Positions 7,676-50,894 of a DNA stretch of 64,000 nt are shown here, piece after piece. The notes under the pieces are model-generated. The model had not been told where the DNA came from. It ran no database searches and saw nothing but the letters and a program-made list of their open reading frames with translations. The position numbers were made by a program, and so were the translations under genes. The DNA is taken from positions 1,662,501 through 1,726,500 of the forward strand of contig NZ_CP016353.1 of NCBI RefSeq assembly GCF_002240355.1, in the 5' to 3' direction. The DNA comes from Prauserella marina (lineage in GTDB: Bacteria > Actinomycetota > Actinomycetes > Mycobacteriales > Pseudonocardiaceae). Every line of letters begins with the position of its first letter. The stretch's first letter is position 1.

Positions 7676-7680
7676 ACGCC

Positions 7681-7709: not shown

Positions 7710-7712
7710 TTA

Positions 7713-8474: not shown

Positions 8475-8521
8475 TGTGGCTTGTCCTTCCGGCGCCAGGC
8501 CTTGCGTTGTATCTCCCGCCA

Positions 8522-8567
8522 AGCGTACCGTACGCTGATATAGTACACCGTACTGTTCAGGTGTACG
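8522..8567. promoter_or_regulatory. Double operator in the tetR-drrA divergent promoter
   Basis: Two palindromes flank a GATATAGT element that resembles a -10 region: AGCGTACCGTACGCT (8522-8536, perfect arms of 7 bp) and AGTACACCGTACT (8542-8554). A further GTGTACG half-site lies at 8561-8567. The arrangement suits autorepression of tetR and control of drrAB. Confidence 0.72.
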
Positions 8568-8661
8568 AACAACGAGAATCAATGCGGTCCGTGAAGGAAT
8601 GCCTGATCAGGCATGGCTGAGTACCGCAAGTTTGGGTGACTGTTCACACCGGGAGAGAAAA

Positions 8662-22151: not shown

Positions 22152-22350
22152 TTCGACGACTCGCTTCACCTGGCGACCTCGTCCACCACGGCAACGCGTG
22201 GACGCGGGAGACAGCGCCAATACCGCCGATACACAGCGTCCCGGGTCACGGCCCCGCCGTTCCAGCCGGCGGTGGATCTACCCGGGCGCTTCGAGCGCGG
22301 GATCCGGATGACGGCCGACCGACGGAAAACCCAGGCGTGGAAAGGTGATC

Positions 22351-33452: not shown

Positions 33453-34741
33453 CAGATCCTCCCGCGATGCTCGGCGGTCAGCTTCTCGATCAGCGGAACG
33501 ACATCATTGGGCGCGGGCTCGGCAAGCATCTCCTCTCGCAGCCGCGCCGCGGCACTGGCGAACGAGGGCTCGCTCACCACACGGGACACCTTGTCCCGCA
33601 ACGTGGCGCCGGTGAGCTCCTCGATCGGCATGGCGAGGCCCGCGCCGGACTCCTCGATCCCGGCGCCCATCACCGCCGTGTCCATGCCGAAGGCGAGGAT
33701 GATCTGCGGCACGCCGTGCAGTTCCGCGTTGGCCTTGGTGCCGATGCCGCCGTGATGCACCACGGCGGCACAGGTCGGCATGAGGTCGTCCAGCGGAACG
33801 AACTCCACCAGCCGCGCGTTGGCAGGGACTTCGGTTACCTGCTCGATCTGCTTGCCGGTCAACGTCGCGACCACTTCGATGTTCAAGCCGGACAGCGCAA
33901 GCAGCAGGTCGGTGATCACCTCGCCATTGAGCCACTCGGCGACCCACTCGGAGACACCGAAGGTCAAGCAGACTCTCGGACGCTTGGCAGGCAGACGCAA
34001 CCAGTCCGGTACCACGGCCGGTCCGTTGTGCGGCACGTACCGCACGCCGACCGTGTGCTGGCCCAGATCGAGCCTGGTGCTGGGGGCGGCCGAGTCGATC
34101 GTCCACTGGCCGGTCACCACATCCTCGGTGAACTCGCCCTCGGCGCCGACCCGTTCGAGGGTCCACCCCAGCCATTCGGCGGCCGGGTCCTCCTGGTGCT
34201 CGGGGTGCTGGAGTTCCTTCTGCCGCAAGAACTCCTTGCGGGCCCGCATGACGACGTCGGGCCCAGTGACGAACCTGGCGTGTGCCGCGCCGACGGCCGT
34301 CGCGGTGATCGCGCCCGCGATCGTGTAGGTCTCCCAGATGACCAGGTCGGGCCGCCAGTCGCGGGCGAAGGCGACCAGCTTGTCGATCATCAGGTCGTTG
34401 TTCATCACCGAGTCGTGCGATGGCACACCGATGTTCTGCAGGCCGAGCAGGTCCTCCCAGGTCCACCGGCCATGGCCCCCTCCGACAAAATCGAACTCAC
34501 GCAGGTAAACGAATCCGTCTTCGTGAAACTGCTTGAGAAGTGCCAGGTCCGCAGGGTCCTTTATGGACCATTCGGGCTCATCGACGGGGACCGCGGTCAA
34601 GCCGGTCTGTGTGATGTCGTCAGTCAGCGCCGGTTCGCTGGCCACCCGGACCTCGTGCCCGGCGCCGCGTAACGCCCACGCCAATGGGACCAGCGGATAA
34701 AAATGAGTGCGGTGGGCCAGCGTGGTGAACAGAACCCTCAT
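33452..34741 (-). CDS. Glycosyltransferase, GT1 family (tandem array, member 1)
   Basis: A 429-residue GT-B enzyme with MRVLFTTLAHRTHFYPLVP and AAVVHHGGIGTKANAEL. It is the most divergent member of the array: its residues 55-105 (around DEPEWSIKDPADLALLKQFH) differ fully from those of members 2-4. It directly follows the second P450-like activator (overlap ATGA at 34738-34741), so it is the candidate activator-dependent enzyme, by analogy with DnrQ/DnrS, whereas the downstream three may act as chain extenders. Confidence 0.94.
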   Translation of the reverse strand: MRVLFTTLAHRTHFYPLVPLAWALRGAGHEVRVASEPALTDDITQTGLTAVPVDEPEWSIKDPADLALLKQFHEDGFVYLREFDFVGGGHGRWTWEDLLGLQNIGVPSHDSVMNNDLMIDKLVAFARDWRPDLVIWETYTIAGAITATAVGAAHARFVTGPDVVMRARKEFLRQKELQHPEHQEDPAAEWLGWTLERVGAEGEFTEDVVTGQWTIDSAAPSTRLDLGQHTVGVRYVPHNGPAVVPDWLRLPAKRPRVCLTFGVSEWVAEWLNGEVITDLLLALSGLNIEVVATLTGKQIEQVTEVPANARLVEFVPLDDLMPTCAAVVHHGGIGTKANAELHGVPQIILAFGMDTAVMGAGIEESGAGLAMPIEELTGATLRDKVSRVVSEPSFASAAARLREEMLAEPAPNDVVPLIEKLTAEHRGRI

Positions 34742-35874
34742 CGCGCCTCTTCTCGGGGATCGGTGCCGGCCGGGAGCCGTAGTAGTTGTCTGGTGACAGG
34801 GGCTCTGCGCCTGCGCAGGGCGAAGCCTGTCCTGTGCAGGGCCGGGAATCTCTTGGCCAGCATGGGAAGTACGGTCTCCGCGACGGCGCGAGCGAACGGG
34901 AGCACCTTGTCGTATGGCGCGCCAGGCAGCAGCGGACCAGCTTCCCGGTCCGGCTCGAATCGCGCGGGATCCACGTGCAGCGCGGGATCCCGGTTCGCTC
35001 CACCGACTCCGACGATGACCTGGTCACCGGCCGCCACCTTGGCCCCGGCGAACGTGAGGCCGGTCCGCGCGATCAAGGCATGCAATTGGATCGGCGAATC
35101 GTGACGCAGGGCCTCGTCGACGACCCGTGGCGCGCGGGCGGGGTCCTCGGCGAGTTTCGTCCAGTGGTCCTGTCCGCCGAGCAGCACGTGCAACGCGTTG
35201 CCGAGCAGGGTCGTGGCCACGCAGGATCCCGCGACGGCGAGCAGGACCGCGCCGGGATCTGCCAGGCGCTCGCGCAGTTCCCCGATGGCATGGAACATGC
35301 GGCGGGTCGCCGTGAGTCGTTGCGGGCACAGCGAAGCATCTGTCGCGATGCTGGTGTCCGCGACTCGTTCGGCAAGCCAGGACGACGGCAGCTGGAACGT
35401 TTCGGCCAGTACGTCGGCGGGGATCCTGGCGGCGAAGGCGGCTATCAGATCCACCTCACCGGTCAGGCCGTCGACGGCTCGCTCGAACGCCGCGGCGGCG
35501 AGCTCGCCCAGCCGGTCGATTGACGAGGGCGCCGCGTGCACGACGTCCTCGTCGAACGGAATCACGCGCAGCGGGGAACGCGGAACGCCCGCATGCACCG
35601 GCCCGAACTCCGGGTGGGCCAGTAGTTCGGTTGCTTGCTCATGATGTCCGGTGACCCATCGGCCGACCGAACTGGGCACGAGCGGCCCGGTGTGCCGTAG
35701 CCGCTCGTACAACGGGTAAGGATCGTCCTCGAAGCCACGGAGCACCCTGGCGTACGGGTCGTCGTTGATCGCGCACAGCCACTGGTTCCCTTGGATGAGT
35801 TGGAGACGCAGGCCCAACTCGGCGGGTTTCAGGGCGCTGGGGTCCGATTCACGTTGCTCGACCACGGCTTTCAC
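34738..35874 (-). CDS. Haem-less P450-like glycosyltransferase activator (DnrQ/AknT type, second copy)
   Basis: A 378-residue P450-fold protein. EALRHDSPIQLHALIA and GGANRDPALHVDPARFEPDR mark the fold. The haem-binding loop is replaced by GAPYDKVLPFARAVAETVLP without a cysteine, so it cannot bind haem as a thiolate. It is about 50 residues shorter than the copy at 16.1 kb. It is translation-coupled to the downstream glycosyltransferase and heads the four-transferase operon. A TCTAG heptamer sits 41 bp upstream of its ATG, within the 3' end of the SARP gene. Confidence 0.9.
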   Translation of the reverse strand: MKAVVEQRESDPSALKPAELGLRLQLIQGNQWLCAINDDPYARVLRGFEDDPYPLYERLRHTGPLVPSSVGRWVTGHHEQATELLAHPEFGPVHAGVPRSPLRVIPFDEDVVHAAPSSIDRLGELAAAAFERAVDGLTGEVDLIAAFAARIPADVLAETFQLPSSWLAERVADTSIATDASLCPQRLTATRRMFHAIGELRERLADPGAVLLAVAGSCVATTLLGNALHVLLGGQDHWTKLAEDPARAPRVVDEALRHDSPIQLHALIARTGLTFAGAKVAAGDQVIVGVGGANRDPALHVDPARFEPDREAGPLLPGAPYDKVLPFARAVAETVLPMLAKRFPALHRTGFALRRRRAPVTRQLLRLPAGTDPREEAR

Positions 35875-37501: not shown

Positions 37502-38611
37502 ATGACCACTCTGGTATGGGACTACCTCGACGAGTACGAGAACGAGCGCGATGACATCCTCGACGCCGTGGACTCGGTGTTCCGTTCCGGTCAGCTCGTG
37601 ATGGGCCAGAGCGTCCGGGGGTTCGAGGAGGAGTTCGCGGCGTACCACGGCGTAGCGCACTGCACGGGCGTCGACAACGGCACGAACGCCATCAAGCTGG
37701 GATTGCAAGCGCTCGGTGTCGGCCCCGGCGACGAGGTGATCACCGTGTCGAACACCGCGGCGCCGACCGTGGTGGCCATCGACTCGGTGGGTGCCAAGCC
37801 GGTGTTCGTCGATGTGCATGTCAAGACTCTCCTGATGGACACCGACCAGGTGTCCGCCGCGATCACCCCGAGGACCCGATGCCTGTTGCCGGTGCATCTC
37901 TACGGCCAGTGCGTGAACATGGCCCCGCTGAAGGAACTCGCGGCGAAGCACGACCTGGTCCTCCTTGAGGACTGCGCTCAGTCGCACGGCGCCCGTCATC
38001 ATGGCAGGCTCGCCGGCAGTATGGGTGACGCGGCCGCCTTCTCGTTCTACCCGACGAAAGTACTGGGTGCCTACGGCGACGGCGGTGCCACGATCACCTC
38101 GGACGACGGGGTGCACCGCAACCTCAAGCGCCTGCGGTACTACGGCATGGAAGAGCGCTACTACGTCATGCGGACGCCGGGCCACAATGCCAGGCTGGAC
38201 GAGGTGCACGCGGAGATCCTGCGCCGGAAGTTGCGCAGGCTCGACAGCTATCTCGATGGCAGGCGCGCGGTCGCCGAGCGCTACGTCGAGGGCCTCGACG
38301 GCACCGATCTCGTCCTCCCGGCGTTGGCTGACGGCAACGACCATGTCTACTACGTGCACGTCGTCCGCCACCCTCGCCGGGACGAGATCCTGGAAGCGTT
38401 GCGCTCCTTCGACATCCGGCTGAACATCAGTTATCCATGGCCGGTGCACACCATGACCGGCTTTGCCCATCTCGGCTATGCCGAAGGCTCCCTTCCGGTG
38501 ACCGAGGCCGCGGCACAGGAGATCTTCTCCCTGCCGATGTATCCATCGCTCAGCCCGGATGTGCAGGACAAGGTGATCGACGCACTGCGCAAGGTTCTCG
38601 AAAACGTATGA
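37502..38611 (+). CDS. PLP-dependent NDP-hexose 3-aminotransferase (DnmJ/EvaB-like)
   Basis: A 369-residue DegT/DnrJ/EryC1-family enzyme. The PLP lysine is Lys186 in [15 protein letters not shown]; the cofactor phosphate and aspartate sites lie in [15 protein letters not shown] and [11 protein letters not shown]. EvaB and DnmJ aminate the 3-keto group left after 2,3-dehydration, giving 2,3,6-trideoxy-3-aminohexoses. It is divergent from the SARP gene. It should provide the amino group for both the N-dimethylated sugar and, after C-methylation and N-oxidation, the nitro sugar. A clean terminator follows. Confidence 0.93.
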
Positions 38612-38660
38612 ATCCCCCTTGCCTGCGATGGCAGTACGCCACCCGCGAGGTTTCCGGACC

Positions 38661-38702
38661 TGGAAGAAGCCCGGCGCCGCGCGGGCGGCCGGGCTTCTTC
38701 CA
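38661..38702. terminator. Perfect hairpin between convergent aminotransferase and 2,3-dehydratase genes
   Basis: TGGAAGAAGCCCGGC (38661-38675) pairs exactly with GCCGGGCTTCTTCCA (38688-38702), 15 bp around a 12-nt GC-rich loop. Confidence 0.88.
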
Positions 38703-38710
38703 CGCCGCGG

Positions 38711-40138
38711 TCAGGCTCCGGAGAGGCTGTGCAGGCAAGCCACGAGGCTGCGTGCCTGGACGTTGAGGTAGTGACTGTGCCGCAACAGGTCCACCAGCTG
38801 ATGCAGCGGCATCCAGCGGAAGTAACGGTCATCCACATCGGCGTCGGTATCCAGCTCTATCACCAGATACCGGTTTCGCGCGTGATAGAACCGGCCGCCC
38901 TCCTCGGAAAGCTCGGTGTCGAACCTGATCTGGTCCGGCTTGGCGTTCAGTACGTAGTCGAGGAACATCGGGCGCGCCTCGGGCGGCAGCGGGTCGAAGT
39001 TCTCCGGGATGCACTGCACGGTGGGCGCGAGCTCGACCGCGTCGACGAAACCCGGCTCGACCCTCGCATGCACCAGTACGTGCAGCACGCCTCCGATGAC
39101 CTGAGCCAGAAACGCCACCACACCGACCCCGTGCGGCTCGATCACCGGCTGCGTCCATCTGCCGACTTCCCGGCCACTCGCGTCCACATCCAGTCCGATG
39201 ACATCGAAGTAGAGATCACGCTCGTGCGCAATCTTCTCTTCGGTGCGGTACCAGCCGGCAACGTCGTGCAACGGAATGCGATTGGTGAAGACATCGGTGC
39301 GAGTACGGCTCTCGGTGATCCAGCTCAGGATGCTGTCCGCGCTGTGCAGACTGCCTTCGTCCGCGTCGCACGACCGGAACAGGGCCGAGTGGAACTCGTC
39401 GGCGGCGGCCGGAAACACCTTCGCCAGGTCGGTACCCGCGAACGGCAGGCACGACAGTACGGTTCTCGCGTCCATGGCGATCAGGTTGTCCTCTCGGAAC
39501 AGCCTGTGCACCTGGCCGAGCGTGAGCCAGCAGAAACCGTCGAGCAGTTCGACCTCCTCGGCAACCTCGACGACCATGTTGCGGTTGCGCTTGTGCTGGA
39601 ACCAGGAACCCTGCTCGGACTGGCGGACGTCGACGATCACGTTGTGCCGCGAGGTGTCCTGGAAATACTCCAGGTATGGCACCGGTTTGCCGCGATGTAC
39701 CCGGGTGTAGTTGCTGCGGGTGGCCTGCACGGTCGGAGAGAGCTGCAGGCCGTTGCAGTTGCCCGGTTCGGCCTTGGCCTGCATCAGGCAATGCAGCACA
39801 CCGTCGAACTGCTTGACCAGTATGCCGAGTATGCCGATCTCCGGCTGGTGGATGATCGGCTGGCTCCAGTGCGCCACGGGCCCGCCGGGCATGTGGATGT
39901 CAAGACCCTCGACGGTGAAGAACTTCCCGCTGTCGTGCCGGAGGTTGCCGGTGCTCTCTTCGGTATGCCAGCCGGTCAGCTCGCTCAGCGGGACGCGGTC
40001 GGCGCGGGTGTACATCCGCTCGCCGAGTTCGGCGAGCCACCGATGGAATTCGACCAGCTCGGCAGGCTCCCGCGCCGACTCGGCGATCCGCAGCGGCATC
40101 AGACGATCGTCCTTCAGCAATTGGCGGTGGTTCGTCAT
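38711..40138 (-). CDS. NDP-4-keto-6-deoxyhexose 2,3-dehydratase (EvaA/DnmT/TylCVI family)
   Basis: About 475 residues composed of two homologous halves, each with a GLDIHMPG/GLDVDASG segment, a W-S/T-QPxI motif (HWSQPIIHQPEIG, RWTQPVIEPHGVG), a VQATRSNYT/VQCIPENFD segment and a terminal L-V/R-C-L motif. The family removes the C-2 hydroxyl to give 2-deoxysugars. The ATG at 40138 overlaps the upstream ketoreductase stop. It belongs to a four-gene operon running from the nitrososynthase (42.9 kb) downward. Confidence 0.93.
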   Translation of the reverse strand: MTNHRQLLKDDRLMPLRIAESAREPAELVEFHRWLAELGERMYTRADRVPLSELTGWHTEESTGNLRHDSGKFFTVEGLDIHMPGGPVAHWSQPIIHQPEIGILGILVKQFDGVLHCLMQAKAEPGNCNGLQLSPTVQATRSNYTRVHRGKPVPYLEYFQDTSRHNVIVDVRQSEQGSWFQHKRNRNMVVEVAEEVELLDGFCWLTLGQVHRLFREDNLIAMDARTVLSCLPFAGTDLAKVFPAAADEFHSALFRSCDADEGSLHSADSILSWITESRTRTDVFTNRIPLHDVAGWYRTEEKIAHERDLYFDVIGLDVDASGREVGRWTQPVIEPHGVGVVAFLAQVIGGVLHVLVHARVEPGFVDAVELAPTVQCIPENFDPLPPEARPMFLDYVLNAKPDQIRFDTELSEEGGRFYHARNRYLVIELDTDADVDDRYFRWMPLHQLVDLLRHSHYLNVQARSLVACLHSLSGA

Positions 40139-41058
40139 GTGCTCTCCGATTCCCACGTGGCTCTCAGCGAATCCGGCAAGCTGATCCGCGGGTGCCAGTT
40201 CAGTAGCTTGCCGGCCAGCCGGATGTCGGCCCGCGTCCAGTCACCGCCCTTGCTGAGCACCGGGTTGTCCAGAAACCGCACTCGGTCCGGCGGGAACCCA
40301 GCCGCGGTGACAAACCGCGTCACCAGGTCACGCATCTCGGTCGCTTCCGCGCTACCGATGTTGATCACTTGGCCCGCCACGGGCGCTCGCGCGGCCAGCG
40401 CGACGGCCTCCGCCACGTCCCGGACGTCGACGTAGTCGCGCTTGGCAGGCGCTATCGTGAGTTCGACCGTGGAGCGATCGGTCGCGGCCTCCCGCAGCCG
40501 GCTGCGCAGGAAGCCGAGGAAGCTCGGTCCCGGCGGGTGCGGGCCACACATGTTCACCGAACGCAGCACGACGCCGTTCACCTGGTCCGCACGCGCCGCC
40601 CGTAACACCGCTTCGGAACCAGCGAGTTTCGTTCTGGCATACAGCGTTTCCGGGGCAGGCTCCGTGTTCTCGTCGATGAGCGTGCCGTCAATGACGGGGC
40701 CGTACTCGTGGATGGTCCCGACGTGGACGAGCCGTGGCCGGCTCGGCACGAGCGCCATCGCTTCCACCAACCGCTCGACGAGCTGAACATGCGCGTAGCG
40801 CATCTCGTGCTCGGTCGTGCCCCAGCCGCCCGTGGCATTGACCACCACGTCGACCCGCTCGTCCGCGAAGGTCCCGGCGATCCGTTCCGGCGGCTCGGCA
40901 CCGAGATCGATCGACCGGAAGTCGTAGGCGGCCACGTGGTCGGCGTACTCGCGGGCTACGGCCAGCACGTGATCACCGTTGCGGGTGAACGCGGCGCATA
41001 CCTGCCTGCCGACACAGCCGGTCGCGCCGAGAACAGCAACTCTGTTCACGCCGGCCAC
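40135..41058 (-). CDS. NDP-hexose 4-ketoreductase (EvaE/DnmV type, copy 1)
   Basis: A 307-residue extended SDR/epimerase-like reductase: VAVLGATGCVGRQVCAAFTR (NADP site), a Ser/Thr at VHVGTIHEYGP, and YARTKLAGSEAVL carrying YxxxK. It reduces the 4-keto group late in deoxysugar assembly. It overlaps the 5-epimerase by 13 bp and the 2,3-dehydratase by 4 bp. A similar gene at 45.2 kb suggests two sugars with different C-4 stereochemistry, or redundancy. Confidence 0.9.
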   Translation of the reverse strand: MAGVNRVAVLGATGCVGRQVCAAFTRNGDHVLAVAREYADHVAAYDFRSIDLGAEPPERIAGTFADERVDVVVNATGGWGTTEHEMRYAHVQLVERLVEAMALVPSRPRLVHVGTIHEYGPVIDGTLIDENTEPAPETLYARTKLAGSEAVLRAARADQVNGVVLRSVNMCGPHPPGPSFLGFLRSRLREAATDRSTVELTIAPAKRDYVDVRDVAEAVALAARAPVAGQVINIGSAEATEMRDLVTRFVTAAGFPPDRVRFLDNPVLSKGGDWTRADIRLAGKLLNWHPRISLPDSLRATWESEST

Positions 41059-41651
41059 AACGCCTTCTCGACCTTCCGGCAGGTCTCATAGTCCGGCAGC
41101 GTTCCGGCTCGCATCGCTTCGTCCAAGGTTTGCGCGGCACTGTCGCGTTCGGACTGGATCGGCTCGATATCCGCTGGAATGGGCAGGTCGAGGGCAGGAT
41201 CGAGCGCCGAAATGGCCAGCTCGTATTCGGGCACGTAAGGGCTTGTCAGCAGATAGGACATCACGGTCTCGTCCTCAAGCGCGACGAACGCATGCCCGAC
41301 CCCGACGGGGAAGTACATCGAACGGAAGTGCTGCTGATCGAGCAGGACGGAGTCGACCTGGCCGAAGGTCGGCGAGCCGACCCTGATGTCGACCACGATG
41401 TCCACTGCTCTGCCTCGGGCGCAGTACACGTACTTGGCGGTGCCCGGCGGGGTCAGGGTGTAGTGCACGCCCCTGATCACGCCGCCGCGAGACCGGCTGT
41501 GGTTGGTCTGCGCTACCGGGATCGATGCATGGCCCGTCGTGTCGCTGAACGCGGACTGCTGGAACGGCGACACGAAGAGCCCCCGTTCGTCCGGAAAGAC
41601 CTGGGGGGTGAACTCAAACGCGCCTTCGACGGCGAGCTCTCGTACTTGCAT
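41046..41651 (-). CDS. NDP-4-keto-6-deoxyhexose 5-epimerase (RmlC/EvaD/DnmU family)
   Basis: A 201-residue cupin. The base His63 lies in GVIRGVHYT, and the family blocks VFPDERGLFVSPFQ, QTNHSRSRGGVIRG, KYVYCARGRAVDIVVD and FPVGVGHAFVALED are all present. It converts D- to L-configured sugars, so the neutral, amino and nitro sugars made here are expected to be L-hexoses. RmlC-type 3,5-epimerisation could also feed a rhamnose branch; which carbons are inverted is not visible. Confidence 0.92.
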   Translation of the reverse strand: MQVRELAVEGAFEFTPQVFPDERGLFVSPFQQSAFSDTTGHASIPVAQTNHSRSRGGVIRGVHYTLTPPGTAKYVYCARGRAVDIVVDIRVGSPTFGQVDSVLLDQQHFRSMYFPVGVGHAFVALEDETVMSYLLTSPYVPEYELAISALDPALDLPIPADIEPIQSERDSAAQTLDEAMRAGTLPDYETCRKVEKALWPA

Positions 41652-41667
41652 CGTGGTTGTCTCCTCA

Positions 41668-42882
41668 TCACGGCGCGAGTGCCTGGGCGCTCAAGAAGTC
41701 GACGGCATCGGCGTAAGTGAACGGGTGCATGAACGAGCCGGCCCTGACGTCCCGCAGCAGCCGAGACAGCGGGTGCCCTGCAGCGAACGAGGCACCACCG
41801 ACCAGCGTCAGGCAGTCGCCGACAATCTCCGGGGCGGTCCGGTTGACGACGAGTTTGGCGCTCTGGAAGGAGGTCATCATCCGGCGGCCACGTTCTCCGG
41901 GGTCGGCGAGCGTGCCGGTGGCGGGAGCCTCCGCCAGCGAAAGCGCCGATCCGGCCGCGGCTCGAAGCGAATGCAGCCTGGCGTCGATCTCGGCTACCAG
42001 CGTCCGGGTACCCGCCTGGTCGTTGCCGCGCTTTCGGACGGTGCCGATCGCGATGTCCCGCGCTGCCTGCGCCACTCCTATGTAGATACCGAGCATCGTG
42101 ATCGAACTGACCGTCTGGCCCGCGAGCATCGCGTCGTCGTGCTCGCCGACGAGGCCACGGAAGAAGATGTCCTCGTCGGCCACGAAGCAGTTGTCCATGA
42201 CGATGTCGACGCTGCCCGAGGCGCGCATGCCGAGCCCGTCCCAATTGTCCAGCACGGTCAGGCCCTCGGTATCCCGCGAGATGACCGCGGCCGCTTGTCC
42301 TGGCGGGCGCCCTTCGACGTCGGTTTGCGCGGAGATCACGAACACCGTCGCGATCGGCGCCATGCTGGCCAGCATCTTGCGCCCGGTCAGCACCCAGCCG
42401 CCGCCCGGTGCCGGGGTCAGCTTGCTGACGATCCTGTGGGCCACCGCGTCTTTTACCGTCGTGCACACGACCGCGTCGGACGACCCCATCGGCCGCAACA
42501 GTCGTTCGGCGAGCGACCGCGCCGACGGCGAACCGTGCAGCCACTCGTGCGTGAGCGTGAGCCCGCGGCTGAGTTGCATATGGAGTGCGAGCGCGGTGGA
42601 CGCGTCCGCCTTGGCGACCATCTGTAACGCCAGCGCGACGTCGTAAAGGGAATCGACGCCAAGGCCACCGAGTTCCTTCGGCACGGTCCCGCCGAGCACG
42701 CCGTCCTTGCGCAAGGCTTCGAAGACGTCGGCCGGGAACGTGCCGTCGCGATCGTTGTCCGCCGATTCCGCTGTGATGCGCGGAATGTGCGCGGACAACA
42801 GATCGAGCAGATCGGTGCCCTGCTCGGTCGTCGGCTCACACAGTTCTCCGGTCAGGCAATGGTCTTCGGTCTGTCTCGACAT
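41668..42882 (-). CDS. Flavin-dependent aminosugar N-oxygenase / nitrososynthase (DnmZ/EvdC/KijD3 family)
   Basis: About 404 residues with the acyl-CoA dehydrogenase fold. The segments VPKELGGLGVDSLYDVALAL, TGRKMLASMAP, GLGMRASGSVDIVMDN and FMHPFTYADAVDFL fit the nitrososynthase branch (ORF36, KijD3, DnmZ), which N-oxidises TDP-3-amino-3-C-methyl or 3-amino sugars with FMNH2 and O2. With the C-methyltransferase and aminotransferase it predicts a branched nitro or nitroso sugar. No flavin reductase is encoded nearby. The ATG at 42882 has GGAGAA upstream. DnmZ homologues also occur in clusters without a final nitro sugar, so product identity needs chemistry. Confidence 0.87.
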   Translation of the reverse strand: MSRQTEDHCLTGELCEPTTEQGTDLLDLLSAHIPRITAESADNDRDGTFPADVFEALRKDGVLGGTVPKELGGLGVDSLYDVALALQMVAKADASTALALHMQLSRGLTLTHEWLHGSPSARSLAERLLRPMGSSDAVVCTTVKDAVAHRIVSKLTPAPGGGWVLTGRKMLASMAPIATVFVISAQTDVEGRPPGQAAAVISRDTEGLTVLDNWDGLGMRASGSVDIVMDNCFVADEDIFFRGLVGEHDDAMLAGQTVSSITMLGIYIGVAQAARDIAIGTVRKRGNDQAGTRTLVAEIDARLHSLRAAAGSALSLAEAPATGTLADPGERGRRMMTSFQSAKLVVNRTAPEIVGDCLTLVGGASFAAGHPLSRLLRDVRAGSFMHPFTYADAVDFLSAQALAP

Positions 42883-42935
42883 TGCGTTCTCCGCTCGAAC
42901 CAGCATGGGGGTCTTCTCACGATGGTGTCCGGCTT

Positions 42936-42953
42936 CGTTCGAAATCCACTAAA
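42936..42953 (-). promoter_or_regulatory. Candidate SARP box for the nitrososynthase operon
   Basis: On the minus strand TTTAGTG-GATT-TCGAACG, 11-bp period, second heptamer 60 bp from the ATG. Confidence 0.42.
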
Positions 42954-42985
42954 ATGTGGGTGACGGCGCGGTCTTACAGCGAATT

Positions 42986-43003
42986 TCCAATGCTTTTCTA
43001 GCT
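42986..43003 (+). promoter_or_regulatory. Candidate SARP box for the cyclase/C-methyltransferase operon
   Basis: TCCAATG-CTTT-TCTAGCT, 11-bp period; the TCTAG heptamer starts 51 bp before the GTG at 43048, which also supports that start. Confidence 0.52.
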
Positions 43004-43047
43004 CGGCGGCAGACGATCGGGATCGTTTCCGGCACTTGGAGGTGGCT

Positions 43048-43827
43048 GTGCGGCTCGTCGACCTGTCCTCGCCGGTGGATGCCTCGTCATTCGAACCTGA
43101 CCCGGTCGTGCATGAGGTGCTCACCCCGCGGGAGGGCGCGCGACACATGAGCGACGAGATGCGCAAGCATTTCGGGATCGAATTCGACGTGGCCGAGCTG
43201 CCGGATTCGGAATTCCTTTCCCTGGACCGCCTCACGCTGACGACGCACGTCGGCACGCACGTGGACGCGCCATCGCACTATGGTTCTCGCGCCTCCTACG
43301 GCAACGGAATTCCCAAGCACATCGACGACATGCCACTGGACTGGTTCTACCGTCCCGGTGTCGTGCTCGACCTGACCGGGCACGGAATCGGTACGGTGGG
43401 CGCGGCGTACCTTGAGAAGGAGTTCAACCGGATCGGCTACACGCCGGCACCGTTGGACATCGTCCTGCTCAACACCGGTGCGTCGAAGTGGGCAGGCACC
43501 CCCGAGTACTTCAGCGATTTCGTCGGGCTGGACGGGCCTGCCGTGCATTTCTTGCTGGACTCGGGTGTCCGGGTGATCGGCACCGACGCGTTCAGCCTGG
43601 ACGCGCCATTCGCCGATGTGCTCGCCCGGTATCGCCGGACCGGGGACCGCTCCGTGCTCTGGCCAGCCCATGTCGCCGGCCGGGACCGGGAGTACTGCCA
43701 GATCGAACGTCTCGCGAACCTCGACGAGATACCGGAGCCGTACGGATTTCGGGTGGCGTGCTTCCCGGTGAAGATCACCGGCGCCGGCGCGGGATGGGCG
43801 AGAGCGGTCGCCATGATCGATGAGTAG
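43048..43827 (+). CDS. Second/third-ring cyclase, metal-dependent hydrolase fold (SnoaM/AknW/DpsY type)
   Basis: About 259 residues of the kynurenine-formamidase-like cyclase family. The signature THVGTHVDAPSHYGS (near residue 70) supplies the metal-ligand His/Asp set. SnoaM, AknW and DpsY close rings two and three after the aromatase has acted. Several start codons are possible; TTGGAGGTGG (43036-43045) as ribosome site and the SARP-like box favour GTG 43048. It lies among sugar genes and is followed by the C-methyltransferase in one operon. Confidence 0.88.
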   Translation: MRLVDLSSPVDASSFEPDPVVHEVLTPREGARHMSDEMRKHFGIEFDVAELPDSEFLSLDRLTLTTHVGTHVDAPSHYGSRASYGNGIPKHIDDMPLDWFYRPGVVLDLTGHGIGTVGAAYLEKEFNRIGYTPAPLDIVLLNTGASKWAGTPEYFSDFVGLDGPAVHFLLDSGVRVIGTDAFSLDAPFADVLARYRRTGDRSVLWPAHVAGRDREYCQIERLANLDEIPEPYGFRVACFPVKITGAGAGWARAVAMIDE

Positions 43828-43885
43828 TACCGGCGGGGCCGGTCGGCCCGCGCCTTCCAGCAAGCGTGAGGTAGAAGGAATTCAG

Positions 43886-45097
43886 ATGTGTCGTGTGTGC
43901 GGCGGTATCGTCAACGAGTTCTTCGACTTCGGTCGCCAGCCCCTTTCGGATACTTTCCTGCGCCCTGAGGAAATCGAGCATGAATACTTCTTCCGGCTCG
44001 CGGTGGGGATCTGTGAGGGTTGCTCGATGGTGCAGCTGGTCGAGGAAGTTCCTCGTGACCGGATGTTCCATGAGGACTACCCCTACCAATCGTCCGGTTC
44101 GGCACGGATGCGTGCGCATTTCGAGCAGACCGCGCGGAAATTCATCGAGACCGAACTGACCGGGGCTGATCCGTTCATCGTGGAGATCGGCTGCAACGAC
44201 GGGGTCATGCTGCGGACCATCGGCAAGGCCGGTATCCGGCATCTCGGTTTGGAGCCCTCCGGTGGGGTCGCGGAACTGGCGCGGGCCGACGGAGTCCGGG
44301 TTCGGACCGACTTCTTCGAAGAGAGTTCGGCGACCGCGATCCGGGCATCGGACGGCCCGGCCGATGTCATATACGCGGCGAACACCATGTGCCACATCCC
44401 TTACCTGGATTCGATTTTCCGGGGAGTGGACGCTCTGCTGGCGCCGAATGGTGTGTTCGTGTTCGAGGACCCCTACCTCGGCGATATCGTCGAGCTGAAC
44501 ACGTTCGACCAGATCTATGACGAGCACTTTTTCCTGTTCTCCGTCAACTCGGTACGCACCGCGGCGAAGCGCTTCGGGTTCGACCTGGTCGATGTGGAGC
44601 GGCTACCGGTGCATGGGGGAGAGGTGCGCTACACGATCGCGAGGGCGGGAGCACGCCCGGTGAGCGCGGCGGTTGAATCGCTCGCCGAGGAGGAGCACGA
44701 GCGCGGCCTCACCGAGCAGTCCACTTTCGACCGTTTCGGCACGGACGTGAAGCGGATCTGTGGTGGCCTGGTGGATCTGCTGCGCAAGCTGCGCGCGGAA
44801 GGCAAGCGAGTGGTTGGCTACGGCGCGACGGCGAAGAGCGCCACGGTGACCAACTACTGCGGTATCGACTCGGAACTGGTGGAGGTCGTCTACGACAGCA
44901 CGCCTGCCAAGAACGGCAGGCTGATGCCCGGATCGCATATCCCGGTCAAGCGCGCCGCCGAATTCGCCGAACCGTACCCGGACTACGTGGTGCTGTTCGC
45001 GTGGAACCACGCTGAGGAGATCATGGCCAAGGAGACCGCCTTCCGCGAGGCCGGTGGCCGCTGGATCCGCTACGTTCCGGACGTGGAAATCTTCTGA
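43886..45097 (+). CDS. NDP-hexose 3-C-methyltransferase (EvaC/TylCIII/EryBIII family)
   Basis: About 403 residues. The N-terminal zinc domain has CRVCGG and CEGCSMVQL. The SAM domain carries VEIGCNDGVMLRTI near residue 95 and YAANTMCHIPYL. A C-terminal Rossmann-like part (GYGATAKSATVTNYCGI) binds the substrate. The family methylates C-3 of TDP-3-keto or 3-amino-4-keto deoxysugars. With the aminotransferase and nitrososynthase this points to a 3-amino-3-C-methyl sugar that is oxidised to a nitro sugar. GAAGGAATT precedes the ATG at 43886; an in-frame start at 43820 is less likely. Confidence 0.92.
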   Translation: MCRVCGGIVNEFFDFGRQPLSDTFLRPEEIEHEYFFRLAVGICEGCSMVQLVEEVPRDRMFHEDYPYQSSGSARMRAHFEQTARKFIETELTGADPFIVEIGCNDGVMLRTIGKAGIRHLGLEPSGGVAELARADGVRVRTDFFEESSATAIRASDGPADVIYAANTMCHIPYLDSIFRGVDALLAPNGVFVFEDPYLGDIVELNTFDQIYDEHFFLFSVNSVRTAAKRFGFDLVDVERLPVHGGEVRYTIARAGARPVSAAVESLAEEEHERGLTEQSTFDRFGTDVKRICGGLVDLLRKLRAEGKRVVGYGATAKSATVTNYCGIDSELVEVVYDSTPAKNGRLMPGSHIPVKRAAEFAEPYPDYVVLFAWNHAEEIMAKETAFREAGGRWIRYVPDVEIF

Positions 45098-45150: not shown

Positions 45151-46041
45151 TTACCGTTCGTCCCACATGGCGCGCAGCGACTCCGCCGCGGTGAAGGCGG
45201 GCCGCCAGCCCAGCAGCCGCCCTGCCAGCCCGATGTCCACCTCGATCCACTCCCCGCCGTGACTTCGCACCTGCCCTTCCACGGTCCGCAGCCGATCGCT
45301 CGGGAACCCCGCCGCCGCGACGAAGGTCATCACCAGCTCACGCATGTCGACGGCGACACCGCTGCCGATGTTGATCACCTGGCCGGATACCGGTGCCGTC
45401 GCGGCGGCCAGCGCCGCGGTGGCGACATCCCGCACGTCGACGAAATCTCGCTTGGCCTCGGCGATGGCCAGTTCCACCGTTTCTCCCGTGCGCAGCGCGC
45501 CACGCAGCCTACGGAGCAGGGAGGCGAAGAACGTCTCCTCAGGCGGGTAAGGGCCGAACATGTTGGCCGCGCGCAGAACCACTCCGCCCGATGCCAGCAC
45601 GGCCATCGAGCAGGCCAGCTTTGTTTGTGAGTACATATCGGACGGGCAGGGTTCGATGGCCTCGTGCAACGCGGTCCCGTTCGGCACCGGCCCGTACTCG
45701 TGTATCGAGCCGATGTGCACAAGTCGCGGCGCATGGTCCAGCAACGCTTGCGCGGCCACCAGGCGCTGGACGACTCCCAGGTGGGAGTGCGCCATCTCCG
45801 CTTCGGTGGGGCCCCACCGGCCAGCGGCGTTGACCACCGTGCCGACCCGTTGCGAGGCAAGAAGTTCCGCGATGTTCTCCTTGCTGGTTGCCGCCACGTC
45901 GAGCGGGATGAACGTGTGATCCGCGATATGTGGTGCTTTTCTCCTCGCGATGGCGAGAACGTCGTGTCCTCGCCGGGCGGCCAGGCCACAGATCTGCCTG
46001 CCGACACAACCGGTCGCACCGATCACAGCCATGCGTCGCAT
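45151..46041 (-). CDS. NDP-hexose 4-ketoreductase (copy 2)
   Basis: A 296-residue reductase similar to the one at 40.1 kb: MAVIGATGCVGRQICGLAAR, VHIGSIHEYGPVPNG, YSQTKLACSMAVL and a shared C-terminal block ending in GWRPAFTAAESLRAMWDER. It probably sets C-4 of a second sugar. It converges on the C-methyltransferase and is separated by 96 bp from the acyltransferase gene upstream, so it may be read from its own promoter or from the minimal-PKS operon. Confidence 0.9.
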   Translation of the reverse strand: MRRMAVIGATGCVGRQICGLAARRGHDVLAIARRKAPHIADHTFIPLDVAATSKENIAELLASQRVGTVVNAAGRWGPTEAEMAHSHLGVVQRLVAAQALLDHAPRLVHIGSIHEYGPVPNGTALHEAIEPCPSDMYSQTKLACSMAVLASGGVVLRAANMFGPYPPEETFFASLLRRLRGALRTGETVELAIAEAKRDFVDVRDVATAALAAATAPVSGQVINIGSGVAVDMRELVMTFVAAAGFPSDRLRTVEGQVRSHGGEWIEVDIGLAGRLLGWRPAFTAAESLRAMWDER

Positions 46042-46137: not shown

Positions 46138-47118
46138 CTATAGGCCAGTAAGTCCTTCTACTCCAAGGCTTTTCGCCGCGGTGGCCAGTGCGGACCGGTC
46201 CCGATCGGGTGGCCCCGGCCTGCCCGGCAACAGCGACACCACCGCACTGCGGCCTGCCCGTACCGCCGGATGACGCCTGGCCAGCTGAGACAGTCCCTGG
46301 CCGGGTCCGGCCTCCACCAGGACGGCGTCACGTTCGGCCAGCAACGCGTCCAGCGCGGGCCAGAACCGGATCATCGCCACCGGGTGGCGGGCCCAGTAGT
46401 TCGCGTCGGCTACGTCCTCGTATGTCAACGGAGCCGCCGTGTAACAGGAATAGAGGGTGATCCGCGGTGGAGACACCGGCAACGTGGCGATCACCTCGGC
46501 CGCTCCCTCGGTCGCCGGTGCGAGCGCCGGACTGTGGAACGGACTGAGCGATGGAACCCGCCGGCAGGTGAAGTCCTGAGCCAGCAACGACTTCTCCACC
46601 AGCGCGAGTGCCGGGTACGGCCCGGCGAGCACGATCTGCCGTGGCGCGTTGACAGCACCGATGACGACGTCGCCGTCGAGGAAGGGCGTGACGTCCTCCT
46701 GCCGCGCGGCGACGGCGAGCATGCCGCCAGGCGGGCCGTCGGCCAACCGGTGCATCCGGTCGAGTACGAGCCGGGCCGCGTCACCCAGCCCGAACACACC
46801 GGCCAGCGTGGCCCCTGCCAGTTCGCCGATGCTATGCCCCAGCAACGTTTCCGGTCGCAGGCCCCAGTCGAACACGACCTGCCCCAACGCGTAGTCGATG
46901 GCGAACAACAGGGGTTGGGCGCGAGTGACGTGGTCGAGCGCGACGGCTGGTTGCCGCGCGAGCCAGTCGGCCCTCAGCCGGGCACCTTCTTCCCCCATCG
47001 CGGCGAACACCTCGTCCATGGCCGCGGTGAACACCGGGTGGGTCCGGTACAGGCCCGTGGCCATGCCGGCGTGCTGGGATCCCTGTCCCGGCAACAACAA
47101 CGCGATCGGTCGGCTCAT
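46138..47118 (-). CDS. Malonyl/acyl-CoA:ACP acyltransferase (DpsD/AknF-like)
   Basis: A 326-residue FabD-type acyltransferase. The nucleophile is Ser96 in GHSIGEL and the catalytic His is in SPFHSPAL (195); GQGSQHAGM is the N-terminal loop. In daunorubicin and aclacinomycin clusters a dedicated AT accompanies a KSIII-like protein to favour a propionyl starter over acetate. The ATG overlaps the KSIII stop (47115-47118). It is the last gene of the minimal-PKS operon. Confidence 0.92.
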
Positions 47119-48167
47119 CGGCCCCCGTCCCTTCCCCGCCCGGCCCACGCCGGCCGTTCGAGTACTTCGATCACCGCGCACGACCAGCTGTACCCGGCAC
47201 CGACGCTCACCAGCAGGCACGTCTGGCCCGCATCGAGCACGCCGCTGTTCACCAAGTGATCGAGGCCCGCGATGGGGTCGCCCGCGCCGAGGTGGCCGAC
47301 AGCGCGATTCCACGGCCAGGTGGTCCTCGCCGGGTCGATGCCGAACCGGCTGAAATACGCGGCCTTCAGTCGCCTGCGACCCACGTGCGGCAACACGATC
47401 CGGTCGATTTCGCCGAGTTCGAGTTCCGCGGCGACCAGTGCCTGCTTGATCGCGTTGTCCTGTCCGGAACTGACCAGAGAGACCACATAGGACACGCTGG
47501 TTCCGGCGAGGAAGGCACGTTTGCACACCTCGTAGTCGACCGGTCTCCGGTGCTCGAACGGTGTCCGCCCGAAGGGGTCGTCACCGCGGTTCATGCCCTC
47601 CAGTTCCGGTTCGGACACGGTGACCAGGCTGCGTAGCCGTGCGAACCCGCCATGGCGGGACAGCACCAGCGCCGTCCCGCCGTCGGCGTACACGGTGCCG
47701 GGATCGCTGTGCCAGCGGTCGAAACCGGGTTCGCAGAATTTGTCTCCGGTGGTGATCAGTGCCGAGGACCGTCCAGGATCGACGGCGAGGTAGGCGGAGG
47801 CCAGCTCCATCGCGGCCATTCCGCCGTTGGACACCTGGCGGACCTCCAAGGCCGGGCATTTGTTCCCGACAGCCTCCCGTTGTACGTAGGAAGCAGGCGT
47901 CCACAGGTCATGACCCTGGTAGAAGAAGCTGGCGTGCAACACAAGGTCGATGTCAGCCGCCGTTGACCGCGCACGGGCCAACGCCGTCTTGGCCGCACGG
48001 GCGGCCATCTCCGGCGCGGACTCGTCGCCTGCCACCGCGACCGAGATCACGTCGGTGGCTCGCGCCAGTGCCGCGTCGAACTTGCCGGCGGCGACCGCCC
48101 GCTCGGTGGGCACCCTCGGCGGCAACCACGTTCCCGTGCTGTCGATGAAGGGAAGTTCCACTGTCAC
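47115..48167 (-). CDS. KSIII-like starter-unit selector with active-site Ser (DpsC/AknE2 type)
   Basis: A 350-residue KASIII homologue. In [14 protein letters not shown] the nucleophile position is Ser113 where KASIII enzymes have Cys. This is the hallmark of DpsC (active-site Ser), which selects propionyl-CoA and transfers it to the chain. [12 protein letters not shown] and [15 protein letters not shown] resemble the remaining active-site loops. Acetate-primed pathways such as nogalamycin lack this gene, so a propionate-type starter (ethyl side chain) is the default prediction. GTG start, overlapping the ACP stop. Confidence 0.93.
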
Positions 48168-48415
48168 GCGCGTCCGGCTTGGTTGACGGCGGTCACGAAC
48201 TGGTTGAGCGTGCGCACCTCGGCGAGCGCGTCGTCGGGCAGTTGAACCCGGTACGCGCGCTTGACCGTCGCGGCGGCCTCCATCAGCGCCAGTGAGTCGT
48301 ACCCGAGGCTCTCAAGGAGCACGTTGCCGATGTCTCCGCCGTCGTCGACCGACTCCTCCTCTCCGGCGCATTTACGCATGATCGTGACCAACTCGGACAA
48401 CGTGAGCTCGCTCAT
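48164..48415 (-). CDS. Type II PKS acyl carrier protein
   Basis: An 83-residue ACP. The phosphopantetheine attachment site is Ser41 in [10 protein letters not shown]. The ATG overlaps the KS-beta stop and its own stop overlaps the KSIII start. It carries the growing decaketide chain between KS, KR and cyclases. Confidence 0.96.
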
Positions 48416-49632
48416 CTGCCTTCCCTTCTTCGGCTGCTGACGACCAGTGCGCTGTTGAACCCTCCGTTGCCCCTGGCGAGGACCAGTGCGGCCGAGCCGG
48501 TGAACGGCCTCGGTCTCCCGCCGAGGACGACGTCGAGGTCGTAGCAAGGCGTCACTCTCGTGGTCGGCGGGATGACCCCGTCACGCAGCGCCAGCAAGGC
48601 GAGCGCGACGTCGACCGGGGCACCGCCGGAGTAGAGGCGGCCGGTCATGGTCTTGGGCGCGGTCACCGGCACACCGTGCGGACCGAACATCTCGACCAGC
48701 ACCTCCGCCTCGACCCTGTCGAGCGGGGCGACTCCAGCCGCGTCGGCGAACACCACCGCGATATCGGTGGTGTTCAGCCCGGCGTCGTCGAGCGCGACCT
48801 CGATCGCGCGCCGGAGGTTGGGAGGCCGGCCGGAACCCGGCCGAGGGTCGAAGGTCGAGCCGTAGCCGACGATCTCACCGTAGGTCGGTGCGTCACGCTC
48901 CCGTGCCTGTCGCTCGTCTTCGACCACGAGGATCGCCCCGCCCTCACCGGGCACATGTCCGGCGGCGTCCCTGTCGAAAGGGAGGTACGTACGAGCCGGT
49001 TCCTCTCGCGTGGACAGCTGGCCGCCGGCAACCTGTGCGGTCATGCCGAACGGGCACAGCGTGGAGTCCATGCCACCGGTCAGTACGAGCGCTGTTCCTT
49101 CGCGGACCACGCGCCTGGCGTGGGCGATGGCGACGAGGCCCCCCGCCTGTTCCGCCACGAACACCCCGGTGGGACCGCGCATGTCGTGCCGGATGGAGAT
49201 CTGACCGGTGTTGACCGCGTAGAACCACGCGAAGGAGTGGTAGGCACTGACGTAGTCCGGCCCGTCACGCCACAGGTTCTGGAGCTCGCGCTGGCCGAAC
49301 TCGAGTCCGCCTGCCGCGCTGGCCGTGATGACTCCCATCTCCAGTGGGGACAATCGAGCGGTGTCGACGGCAGAATCGGTGATCGCCCAGTCGGCGGCGG
49401 TGAGGGCGAACTGAGTCATCCGGTCTGTCTGCGGGATCAGCCTGCTCGGAATGTGCTTGCTCGCCTCGAAGTCGAGCACTTCACCAGCCAGCTTGGTCGG
49501 ATACGAGCCAGGGTCGAAGCGCGTGATCGGCCGGATCGCGTCTTGTCCACGCAGGGTCGCCGACCAGAAGGCTTCGGTGCCGAGCCCATTGGGGGCCACG
49601 ACTCCCAGACCGGTAACCACCGCTTTGGTCAC
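48412..49632 (-). CDS. Ketosynthase beta subunit / chain-length factor
   Basis: A 406-residue KS homologue in which the active-site Cys is replaced by Gln162 (FVAEQAGG), the mark of a chain-length factor. The GTG at 49632 overlaps the KS-alpha stop, giving the usual coupled pair that forms a heterodimer. Family size and cluster context predict a decaketide (C20-21) chain. Confidence 0.96.
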   Translation of the reverse strand: MTKAVVTGLGVVAPNGLGTEAFWSATLRGQDAIRPITRFDPGSYPTKLAGEVLDFEASKHIPSRLIPQTDRMTQFALTAADWAITDSAVDTARLSPLEMGVITASAAGGLEFGQRELQNLWRDGPDYVSAYHSFAWFYAVNTGQISIRHDMRGPTGVFVAEQAGGLVAIAHARRVVREGTALVLTGGMDSTLCPFGMTAQVAGGQLSTREEPARTYLPFDRDAAGHVPGEGGAILVVEDERQARERDAPTYGEIVGYGSTFDPRPGSGRPPNLRRAIEVALDDAGLNTTDIAVVFADAAGVAPLDRVEAEVLVEMFGPHGVPVTAPKTMTGRLYSGGAPVDVALALLALRDGVIPPTTRVTPCYDLDVVLGGRPRPFTGSAALVLARGNGGFNSALVVSSRRREGR

Positions 49633-50894
49633 CGCGCTCTCCCATCGGTCAGCACCATCGCGCTCTGGAACCCGCCGAATCCGCTGGCCACCGTCAGTAC
49701 CGTGGCCAGGTCCTGTTCGCGGCCGACAAGCGGCACGTAGTCCAGATCCAGCTCGGGGTCGGGACGGTGCAGGTTGGCGGTCGGCGGAACCACGCCGTAT
49801 TCGATCGCCAGCGCGCACGCGGCCACCTCGATCGCGCCGACGGCGCCAAGCGAGTGACCGATCACCGACTTGATCGAGCTGACCGGTACGGCATAGGCAT
49901 GTTCGCCGAGGCTGTGTTTGAAAGCCGCGGTCTCGTGCACGTCGTTCTGCCGGGTGGCCGTGCCGTGCGCGTTGACGTAGTCGACGTCGATCGGGTCGAG
50001 TTTGGCCCTGTCCAACGCCGAGGTGATCGCGGCCGCCATCTCTCGTCCGTCCGGGCGCAAGCCGGTCATGTGATGAGCGTTCCCGTGACAGGCGTAGCCG
50101 CTGATCTCGCCGTAGATGTGTGCCTCGCGTGCGCGTGCGTGCTCGAATTCCTCCAGCACGAGGACCGCGGCGCCCTCGCCGAGCACGAAACCGTCGCGGG
50201 TGCGGTCGAACGGGCGCGAAGCACTCCCCGGATCGTCGTTGCGTGGCGATGTCGCCTTGATCGCGTCGAAACAGGCAACAGTGATGGGGGCGATCGGAGC
50301 CTCCGCGCCGCCGGTGACCATCACGTCGGCCGAGCCCTCCCGGATCAGCTGCCAGGCGTAACCGATGGCGTCCATTCCGGACGTGCACCCCGCCGAGACG
50401 ATCGCGTTGGGCCCTTCCGCACCGGCCAGCCACGCGACTTCGGCCGACAATGAGCTGGGCACGTAGTAGTCGAAGAGGTTGGGCGACGCGCGGCGGTGGT
50501 CGACCAACCACTGCCTTCCTTCGTCGCTGACCGCGAGATACTCCTGTTCGAGGCGCTGGGTGCAGCCCACCGCGTTGCCGATGCTCGCCCCGACTCGGTG
50601 CGCGTTGTCAGGCACGCACGCGAAGTCGCTGTCCGCCAGTGCCTCCGCGGCTGCTACCAGCAGCAACTGGCTCACCCGGTCCAGCCGCTCGACGTCGTCC
50701 TCGGTGAGGCCCTCTTGACGAGGGTCGAAGTCACACTCCGCCGCGACCCGCGAGCGGAAAGGGGTGGCGTCGAACGTCGTGATCAGCCTGGTCGCAGGCA
50801 CACCGGACACGATGCGCTCCCACATCGCCTTCGTCCCGACATCGCCGGGCGCGACCACACCCATCCCGGTGATTGCCACACGACGTTCTCCCAT
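49629..50894 (-). CDS. Ketosynthase alpha subunit
   Basis: A 421-residue condensing enzyme with Cys170 in VSAGCTSGMDA, and His residues in NAHGTATRQND and IKSVIGHSLGA. It extends the ACP-bound chain with malonyl units. It heads the KS-alpha, KS-beta, ACP, KSIII, AT series, in which every junction overlaps by 4 bp. A heptamer pair 61 bp upstream (50949-50966) is a candidate SARP box, lying over the end of the carboxylase epsilon-subunit gene. Confidence 0.97.
   Translation of the reverse strand: MGERRVAITGMGVVAPGDVGTKAMWERIVSGVPATRLITTFDATPFRSRVAAECDFDPRQEGLTEDDVERLDRVSQLLLVAAAEALADSDFACVPDNAHRVGASIGNAVGCTQRLEQEYLAVSDEGRQWLVDHRRASPNLFDYYVPSSLSAEVAWLAGAEGPNAIVSAGCTSGMDAIGYAWQLIREGSADVMVTGGAEAPIAPITVACFDAIKATSPRNDDPGSASRPFDRTRDGFVLGEGAAVLVLEEFEHARAREAHIYGEISGYACHGNAHHMTGLRPDGREMAAAITSALDRAKLDPIDVDYVNAHGTATRQNDVHETAAFKHSLGEHAYAVPVSSIKSVIGHSLGAVGAIEVAACALAIEYGVVPPTANLHRPDPELDLDYVPLVGREQDLATVLTVASGFGGFQSAMVLTDGRAR

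Follow-up and report, generated by a model that had tools for sequence, protein, structure and literature searches.

A branched-aminosugar gene block with a nitrososynthase in an anthracycline-type cluster of Prauserella marina

The window analysed here is a 64,000-nucleotide stretch of the 6.99-Mb genome of Prauserella marina (contig NZ_CP016353.1, positions 1,662,501 to 1,726,500). By gene content, window positions 3000-52700 make up a cluster for the biosynthesis of an anthracycline related to daunorubicin, a drug used against cancer. Within this cluster lies a block of sugar genes whose core, at 41668-45097, consists of a nitrososynthase gene, a gene for a PF04199 cyclase and a gene for a sugar C-methyltransferase, exactly as an earlier, sequence-only reading had placed them (Table 1). 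That reading also named six sugar enzymes within 8 kb, and all six were found in 37502-45097 (7596 bp), with the families it had assigned. A second ketoreductase (KR2) lies beyond that set.

The nitrososynthase open reading frame (ORF) spans 41668-42906 on the minus strand, with translation probably starting from the ATG at 42882. Its best PDB matches were 4kcf (KijD3; 504 bits), 3mxl (entry name Nitrososynthase, which we take to be ORF36; 462 bits) and 4zxv (DnmZ; 446 bits), with the next PDB family at 107 bits, a gap of more than 300 bits. The relation to KijD3, ORF36 and DnmZ extends over the full length and stands well above that to other acyl-CoA-dehydrogenase-fold oxygenases, and the score gap (446-504 against 107 bits) rules out an ordinary acyl-CoA dehydrogenase at 41668-42882. 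Moreover, genes suited to a TDP-3-amino(-3-C-methyl) sugar (aminotransferase, 2,3-dehydratase, C-methyltransferase, epimerase and ketoreductase) lie within 7.6 kb. Thus, as judged by its sequence, the enzyme is a sugar nitrososynthase of the KijD3/ORF36/DnmZ kind; 4kcf is named KijD3 in an excerpt of PMC5481743. A second gene of the acyl-CoA-dehydrogenase fold, of the ordinary type and with typical PF00441, PF02770 and PF02771 scores, is found in the same cluster (22345-23544, plus strand). Nitrososynthase genes are sparsely distributed: at E ≤ 1e-80 the source genome was the only one of four in the genus with a match, and matches were found in 5 of 297 genomes of the family and 4 of 394 of the class sample (own genome included in each). 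A plasmid search at E ≤ 1e-60 gave no match.

The C-methyltransferase ORF covers 43820-45097 on the plus strand, with a likely start at the ATG at 43886, and carries PF08421, PF13489 and PF08484, the last of these unique to it among the 50 window ORFs taken into the Pfam scan (about ten further called genes lie outside that scan). The protein scored 622 bits against PDB 5t64, presumably KijD1, and 615 against TcaB9 (610-622 over the 5t64 and TcaB9 entries), compared with 282 for a mycarose C-methyltransferase. Its Zn-binding, S-adenosylmethionine (SAM) and C-terminal domains, with the aminosugar enzymes scoring above the mycarose ones, make it a member of the EvaC/TcaB9/KijD1 type, and the Y-D-E-H segment, to which we ascribe a catalytic role, is retained in the alignments to the PDB entries. 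By position it corresponds to DnrX, which we likewise take to be a C-methyltransferase. Neutral C-methylation, of the mycarose or nogalose type, is disfavoured by the bit scores and by the tree, in which the type with 36-38% identity forms a separate, very long branch. C-methyltransferases of the window's type are far commoner than nitrososynthases (93 of 390 family genomes at E ≤ 1e-120). The cyclase between the sugar genes (ORF 43036-43827, plus strand; likely start GTG 43048), which by its position we presume to be the DpsY counterpart, serves in ring formation on the aglycone itself. An excerpt of PMC11676270 places dpsY with the aglycone genes and has it act in aglycone formation.

Gene positions and start codons define the operon picture. 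On the minus strand, the nitrososynthase, epimerase, KR1 and 2,3-dehydratase genes follow one another, first across a gap of 16 bases and then with overlaps. They diverge from a plus-strand unit in which the cyclase and C-methyltransferase genes lie 58 bases apart. The aminotransferase gene stands alone on the plus strand, convergent with the 2,3-dehydratase gene, and KR2 is separate on the minus strand. Hence, of the two divergent operons proposed earlier, the divergent pair holds, but orientation gives at least four units. The route had also been called complete; the six enzymes are there, but dTDP-glucose synthase and 4,6-dehydratase genes are both absent from the 64-kb window. Only one place in the genome, at 885361, exceeds the rmlB cut-off; a nucleotidyltransferase lies at 895687, and the window follows some 0.77 Mb further on. 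As rmlA and rmlB are needed from elsewhere in the genome, the sugar route is not self-contained in the window. The lack of an encoded flavin reductase was confirmed, in that PF01613 occurs at five places genome-wide, none within 1662501-1726500.

A nitrososynthase alignment of seven rows, scanned against the named genomes, gave 63 loci of relatives, each reaching up to 10 kb on either side; genes counted as missing may lie beyond, and layout names rest on best matches to window proteins only. Full-length homologues with more than 50% identity are encoded at 52 of the 63, and a partial one (L066) and those of 35% identity or less (L068-L077) were kept outside this set and the nitrososynthase tree. 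In the fetched stretches, the C-methyltransferase (at least 60% identity) accompanies the nitrososynthase at 44 of the 52 loci, the aminotransferase at 41, the 2,3-dehydratase at 34, the epimerase at 25 and the cyclase at 11. The five reductases of the source genome, used in tblastn searches that could miss distant reductases, matched only two of the 52 loci (L027 and L051) and L075 outside the set; the absence of a flavin reductase near the nitrososynthase looks usual. Ketosynthase (KS) was searched in the genomes of 34 of the 63 loci, 29 of which gave a match, ketosynthase III (KSIII) in 17 genomes and PhyH in 11, the latter two also in the source genome. Five Streptosporangiaceae loci (L019, L025, L026, L033 and L062) combine nitrososynthase, aminotransferase and C-methyltransferase with EryCIII-type glycosyltransferases, and three of these five genomes gave a KS match; the window aminotransferase is 80% identical to that of L019.

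The order C-methyltransferase-cyclase, divergent from nitrososynthase-epimerase-KR1, recurs with an inward-facing aminotransferase at six of the 52 loci, those of S. coeruleorubidus (L042), S. ruber (L044), S. prasinopilosus (L059) and Nonomuraea (L043, L045, L046). Through these loci the window was compared with the daunorubicin/baumycin clusters, in which order and orientation are the same and a DrrA-type transporter gene also lies nearby; we take the corresponding order there to be dnrX-dpsY/dnmZ-dnmU-dnmV. L052 has the same order without the cyclase, and KR1 follows the epimerase in all seven. In the six, the divergent gap between tblastn matches is 198-216 bp, and the cyclase in the same place is 69-73% identical to that of the window; the epimerase shares 66-68% with daunorubicin-layout loci and the 2,3-dehydratase 57% with that of S. 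coeruleorubidus, in which daunorubicin efflux is treated in an excerpt of PMC11676270. The embedded cyclase and split operons, earlier singled out as noteworthy, are thus the layout of daunorubicin-type clusters and ordinary; the lineage of the nitrososynthase is a modest twist. A DpsC-type KSIII is common to the window and L042, L044, L045 and L059 (63-64% identity), and was found at 62-64% in all five daunorubicin-layout or near genomes searched (these four and L052); its predicted starter unit is propionate. The window differs from the daunorubicin loci in that its 2,3-dehydratase follows KR1 in one unit and, as far as the 10-kb flanks extend, in its second ketoreductase, five glycosyltransferases and TylF/MycE-type methyltransferases.

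The nitrososynthase itself falls outside the clade of the daunorubicin-layout loci. In a tree of 53 sequences (trees and column counts exclude the first 60 bases of the window ORF) it grouped with L015-L018 and L020-L024 (support 98/94), a clade that includes the nogalamycin-like clusters L016-L018 and L020-L024. Holding the window with the daunorubicin-layout clade (the six loci and L052) cost 20 log units in an approximately unbiased (AU) test (p 0.047), the group having been chosen after the tree was seen. The window shares none of the 12 columns by which the daunorubicin-layout clade is distinguished and both of the two specific to the other group, a count that largely restates the tree. 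Two Streptomyces loci, L047 (S. swartbergensis) and L051 (S. glomeratus), are type II polyketide synthase (PKS) clusters with nitrososynthases of a further, separate clade (100/100); among the genomes searched, that of L047 has the KS (77%) and KSIII (71%) closest to those of the window.

The nogalamycin-like loci, which we expect to yield arugomycin/keyicin-type anthracyclines, resemble the window in further respects: the cyclase is 73-77% identical at five of the eight (L018, L020-L022 and L024), and a MycE-type gene is present at seven and an AknOx-type gene at five. The best relative of the window KR2 is the KR2 of L016 (60%), and the window 2,3-dehydratase is 65% identical to that of L023. 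The nogalamycin-like loci differ from the window in several other respects. All eight have a PhyH-type gene, presumably of the family of SnoK and SnoN, no more than about 22 kb from the nitrososynthase (at L016, L020-L022 and L024, contigs were assigned to names through coordinates), whereas in the source genome PhyH was found at two places (3.80 and 6.16 Mb), neither in the window; no PhyH gene lies near the nitrososynthase in L042 and L045, the two daunorubicin-layout genomes searched. Seven of the eight have a neutral-type C-methyltransferase (36-38%), absent from the window. A close DpsC-type KSIII, present in the window, was absent at E ≤ 1e-30 from eight of the nine genomes of L015-L018 and L020-L024, and the ninth, L021, gave a 39% match only. 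The role of SnoK and SnoN in nogalamycin is covered in an excerpt of PMC5321127, and arugomycin and keyicin are named as nogalamycin products in one of PMC11990799. At L016, the first gene matched beyond the nitrososynthase, in the same orientation, encodes a TylF-type O-methyltransferase with 63% identity to that at window 10566-11321, hinting at a possible O-methylation of the N-oxidised sugar.

At the kijanimicin locus of Actinomadura kijaniata (L027), nitrososynthase, aminotransferase and C-methyltransferase genes occur together as in the window, and the kijanimicin and everninomicin enzymes, KijD3 and ORF36, gave the highest PDB scores for the window nitrososynthase. L027, however, shows repeated weak KS and acyltransferase (AT) matches of a modular PKS, in contrast to the type II PKS of the window, and a flavin-reductase-like frame (7364-7882) about 2 kb from the nitrososynthase, where the window has no reductase.

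From the genes, their families, their order and their relatives we infer substrates, branch assignment and fate of the nitrogen as follows. The block would be the branched-aminosugar part of an anthracycline cluster of the daunorubicin/aclacinomycin kind, and its N-oxidised 3-C-methyl aminosugar would most likely be kept as a nitroso or nitro sugar, a reading to which we give a probability of about 0.6. dTDP-4-keto-6-deoxyglucose would be supplied by enzymes encoded outside the window, and 2,3-dehydration and 3-amination would give a 3-amino-2,3,6-trideoxy-4-keto sugar as the branch point. In one branch, the epimerase and KR1 may lead to daunosamine and the N-methyltransferases to a rhodosamine-type sugar. 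In the other, C-methylation before reduction, epimerization and probably KR2 would give a 3-C-methyl aminosugar of the vancosamine/epivancosamine kind. The nitrososynthase would then oxidise the 3-amino group in two steps, to the hydroxylamine and the nitroso group, a general flavin reductase supplying the reduced flavin; a further oxidation to nitro is assumed, with no gene nameable for that step, and one of the five glycosyltransferases would attach the nitroso or nitro sugar. The cyclase may be held between the sugar genes by inherited gene order. When C3 bears a hydrogen, a nitroso group can turn into an oxime, and a quaternary C3 blocks this; the pairing of C-methyltransferase with nitrososynthase would be accounted for in this way. 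Of the 3-amino/nitro-3-C-methyl sugar in the sequence-only reading, the enzyme set and the idea of an N-oxidised 3-amino-3-C-methyl sugar find good support in the family and structure matches and in the relatives, and the nitro end point is putative. Because the nitrososynthase groups with nogalamycin-like clusters, its lineage mildly favours a nitroso or nitro sugar over baumycin-type ring opening.

Several points weigh against this interpretation. The genes for the first dTDP-sugar steps lie outside the window. The AU rejection (p 0.047) is narrow, and its true strength is less than the figure because the tested group was named after the tree was seen. The C-methyltransferase tree (from which the short sequence of L019 was left out) joins the window to the daunorubicin-layout clade (97/91), so that the two trees point both ways. 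The ketoreductase tree does not decide which of KR1 and KR2 belongs to which branch, and L035, with the second closest KS, gave no DpsC-type KSIII at E ≤ 1e-30. Joining the window C-methyltransferase to the nogalamycin-layout set was not rejected (p 0.36). The cyclase tree has no outgroup and does not fix the side of the window, the epimerase and ketoreductase trees leave it unplaced, and the 2,3-dehydratase tree sets it weakly beside L035 (88/86). A mosaic origin is not established by these conflicting trees, as the nitrososynthase side is narrow (p 0.047) and the C-methyltransferase side not rejected (p 0.36).

An enzyme swap, in which a DnmZ-type nitrososynthase was replaced by one of the nogalamycin/arugomycin lineage in a daunorubicin-like, propionate-started arrangement and the branched sugar is kept as nitro, is therefore possible only, given a C-methyltransferase tree with 97/91 on one side and p 0.36 on the other, and we rate it as rather unlikely. 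In that case the predicted product is an anthracycline of the rhodomycinone/aklavinone type that bears a 3-nitro-3-C-methyl sugar. It is also conceivable, though we think it rather unlikely, that the nitroso 3-C-methyl sugar breaks a ring C-C bond to give an acid-labile, ring-opened appendage on the anthracycline, as in the baumycins. A nitroso group next to the C4 hydroxyl could lead to C-C cleavage, and a 2013 study by Al-Mestarihi is said, by its title, to concern nitrososynthase-triggered cleavage in baumycin biosynthesis. The gene order shared with S. coeruleorubidus and five other daunorubicin-type loci, the sister relation of the C-methyltransferase to the daunorubicin-layout ones (97/91) and the conversion of daunorubicin to baumycins by the dnrX and dnrH products, as stated in an excerpt of PMC11043234, are consistent with such a fate. 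The nitrososynthase, however, groups elsewhere (AU p 0.047) with none of the 12 daunorubicin-layout columns, and KijD3 outscores DnmZ (504 against 446 bits).

By its position in one unit with the epimerase, ketoreductase and 2,3-dehydratase, the nitrososynthase homologue might instead serve the supply of TDP-daunosamine or rhodosamine, with no N-oxidised sugar in the product; dnmZ, dnmU and dnmV are reportedly required for TDP-L-daunosamine (Otten, 1997, by title). We consider this improbable, as to our knowledge daunosamine needs no N-oxidation, and the nitrososynthase stands beside an aminosugar C-methyltransferase at 44 of 52 loci and does so in modular-PKS surroundings as well, as in A. 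kijaniata. Least probable are separate sugars, with the C-methyltransferase serving an N-methylated vancosamine-type sugar and the nitrososynthase a daunosamine-type sugar lacking the C-methyl group: two candidate N-methyltransferases, two ketoreductases and five glycosyltransferases allow several sugars, and at 8 of 52 loci the fetched stretch has no C-methyltransferase at 60% or more, but the two enzymes occur together at the other 44 and a C3 with hydrogen would allow the oxime that a quaternary C3 prevents.

The rest of the cluster fits an anthracycline. The KS is 77% identical to its match in the genome of L047, 71% to that of L035 and 70% to that of L042, and the minimal PKS genes include a chain length factor (CLF) and an acyl carrier protein (ACP). 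An AknOx-type oxidase scored 580 bits against PDB 2ipi, and further genes encode a Polyketide_cyc aromatase, two SnoaL-type cyclases, short-chain ketoreductases, and an O-methyltransferase and an esterase that we take to be of the RdmB/RdmC kind. The two PF13649 methyltransferases are candidate sugar N-methyltransferases. A 378-residue ORF (34738-35874, minus strand), between the glycosyltransferases and a Streptomyces antibiotic regulatory protein (SARP) gene, had no Pfam match at 1e-5; its position points to a role in assisting a glycosyltransferase, possibly similar to that of the P450-type protein at 16128-17408.

Table 1. Features of the sugar block and of the surrounding cluster (window positions).
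Feature	Position	Strand	Basis
Sugar 3-aminotransferase (DegT/DnrJ/EryC1 family)	37502-38611	+	PF01041, E 7e-106
NDP-hexose 2,3-dehydratase	38711-40138	-	PF03559, two stretches, E 2e-160
4-Ketoreductase KR1, short-chain dehydrogenase/reductase (DnmV position)	40135-41058	-	PF01370, E 5e-36
RmlC-type 3,5-/5-epimerase (DnmU position)	41046-41651	-	PF00908, E 1e-52
Nitrososynthase (flavin-dependent aminosugar N-oxygenase)	41668-42882	-	PDB matches and tree
Divergent intergenic region, 165 bp, nitrososynthase unit versus cyclase unit	42883-43047		start codons; promoters inferred
PF04199 cyclase, DpsY-type aglycone cyclase	43048-43827	+	PF04199, E 1e-29
Sugar 3-C-methyltransferase, 3-aminosugar type (DnrX position)	43886-45097	+	PDB matches and tree
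Second 4-ketoreductase KR2, candidate C-methyl-branch reductase	45151-46041	-	PF01370, E 8e-31
Minimal PKS and starter enzymes: AT, KSIII (DpsC type), ACP, CLF, KS	46138-50879	-	
Four tandem EryCIII-type glycosyltransferases	29570-34741	-	PF21036/PF06722
Fifth EryCIII-type glycosyltransferase	14847-16112		
SAM methyltransferase, candidate sugar N-methyltransferase	28831-29592	+	PF13649
Second candidate sugar N-methyltransferase	14023-14736		PF13649
MycE_N-type methyltransferase	12830-13981	+	
SAM synthetase	11405-12607	-	
TylF-type O-methyltransferase	10566-11321	-	
DrrA/DrrB-type ATP-binding cassette transporter, likely self-resistance	8662-10514	+	
TetR gene, likely self-resistance block	7713-8582	-	
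UvrA-like DrrC-type gene, likely self-resistance	5390-7690	-	

Few natural sugars carry a nitro or nitroso group, and the factor that determines whether a nitroso sugar is kept or its ring broken lends itself to study with a comparison pair. Should the tree mislead, the cluster is one more daunorubicin-like cluster. If true, the daunorubicin gene order combined with a nitrososynthase of another lineage would provide such a pair, and the cluster would be a candidate source of an N-oxidised anthracycline.

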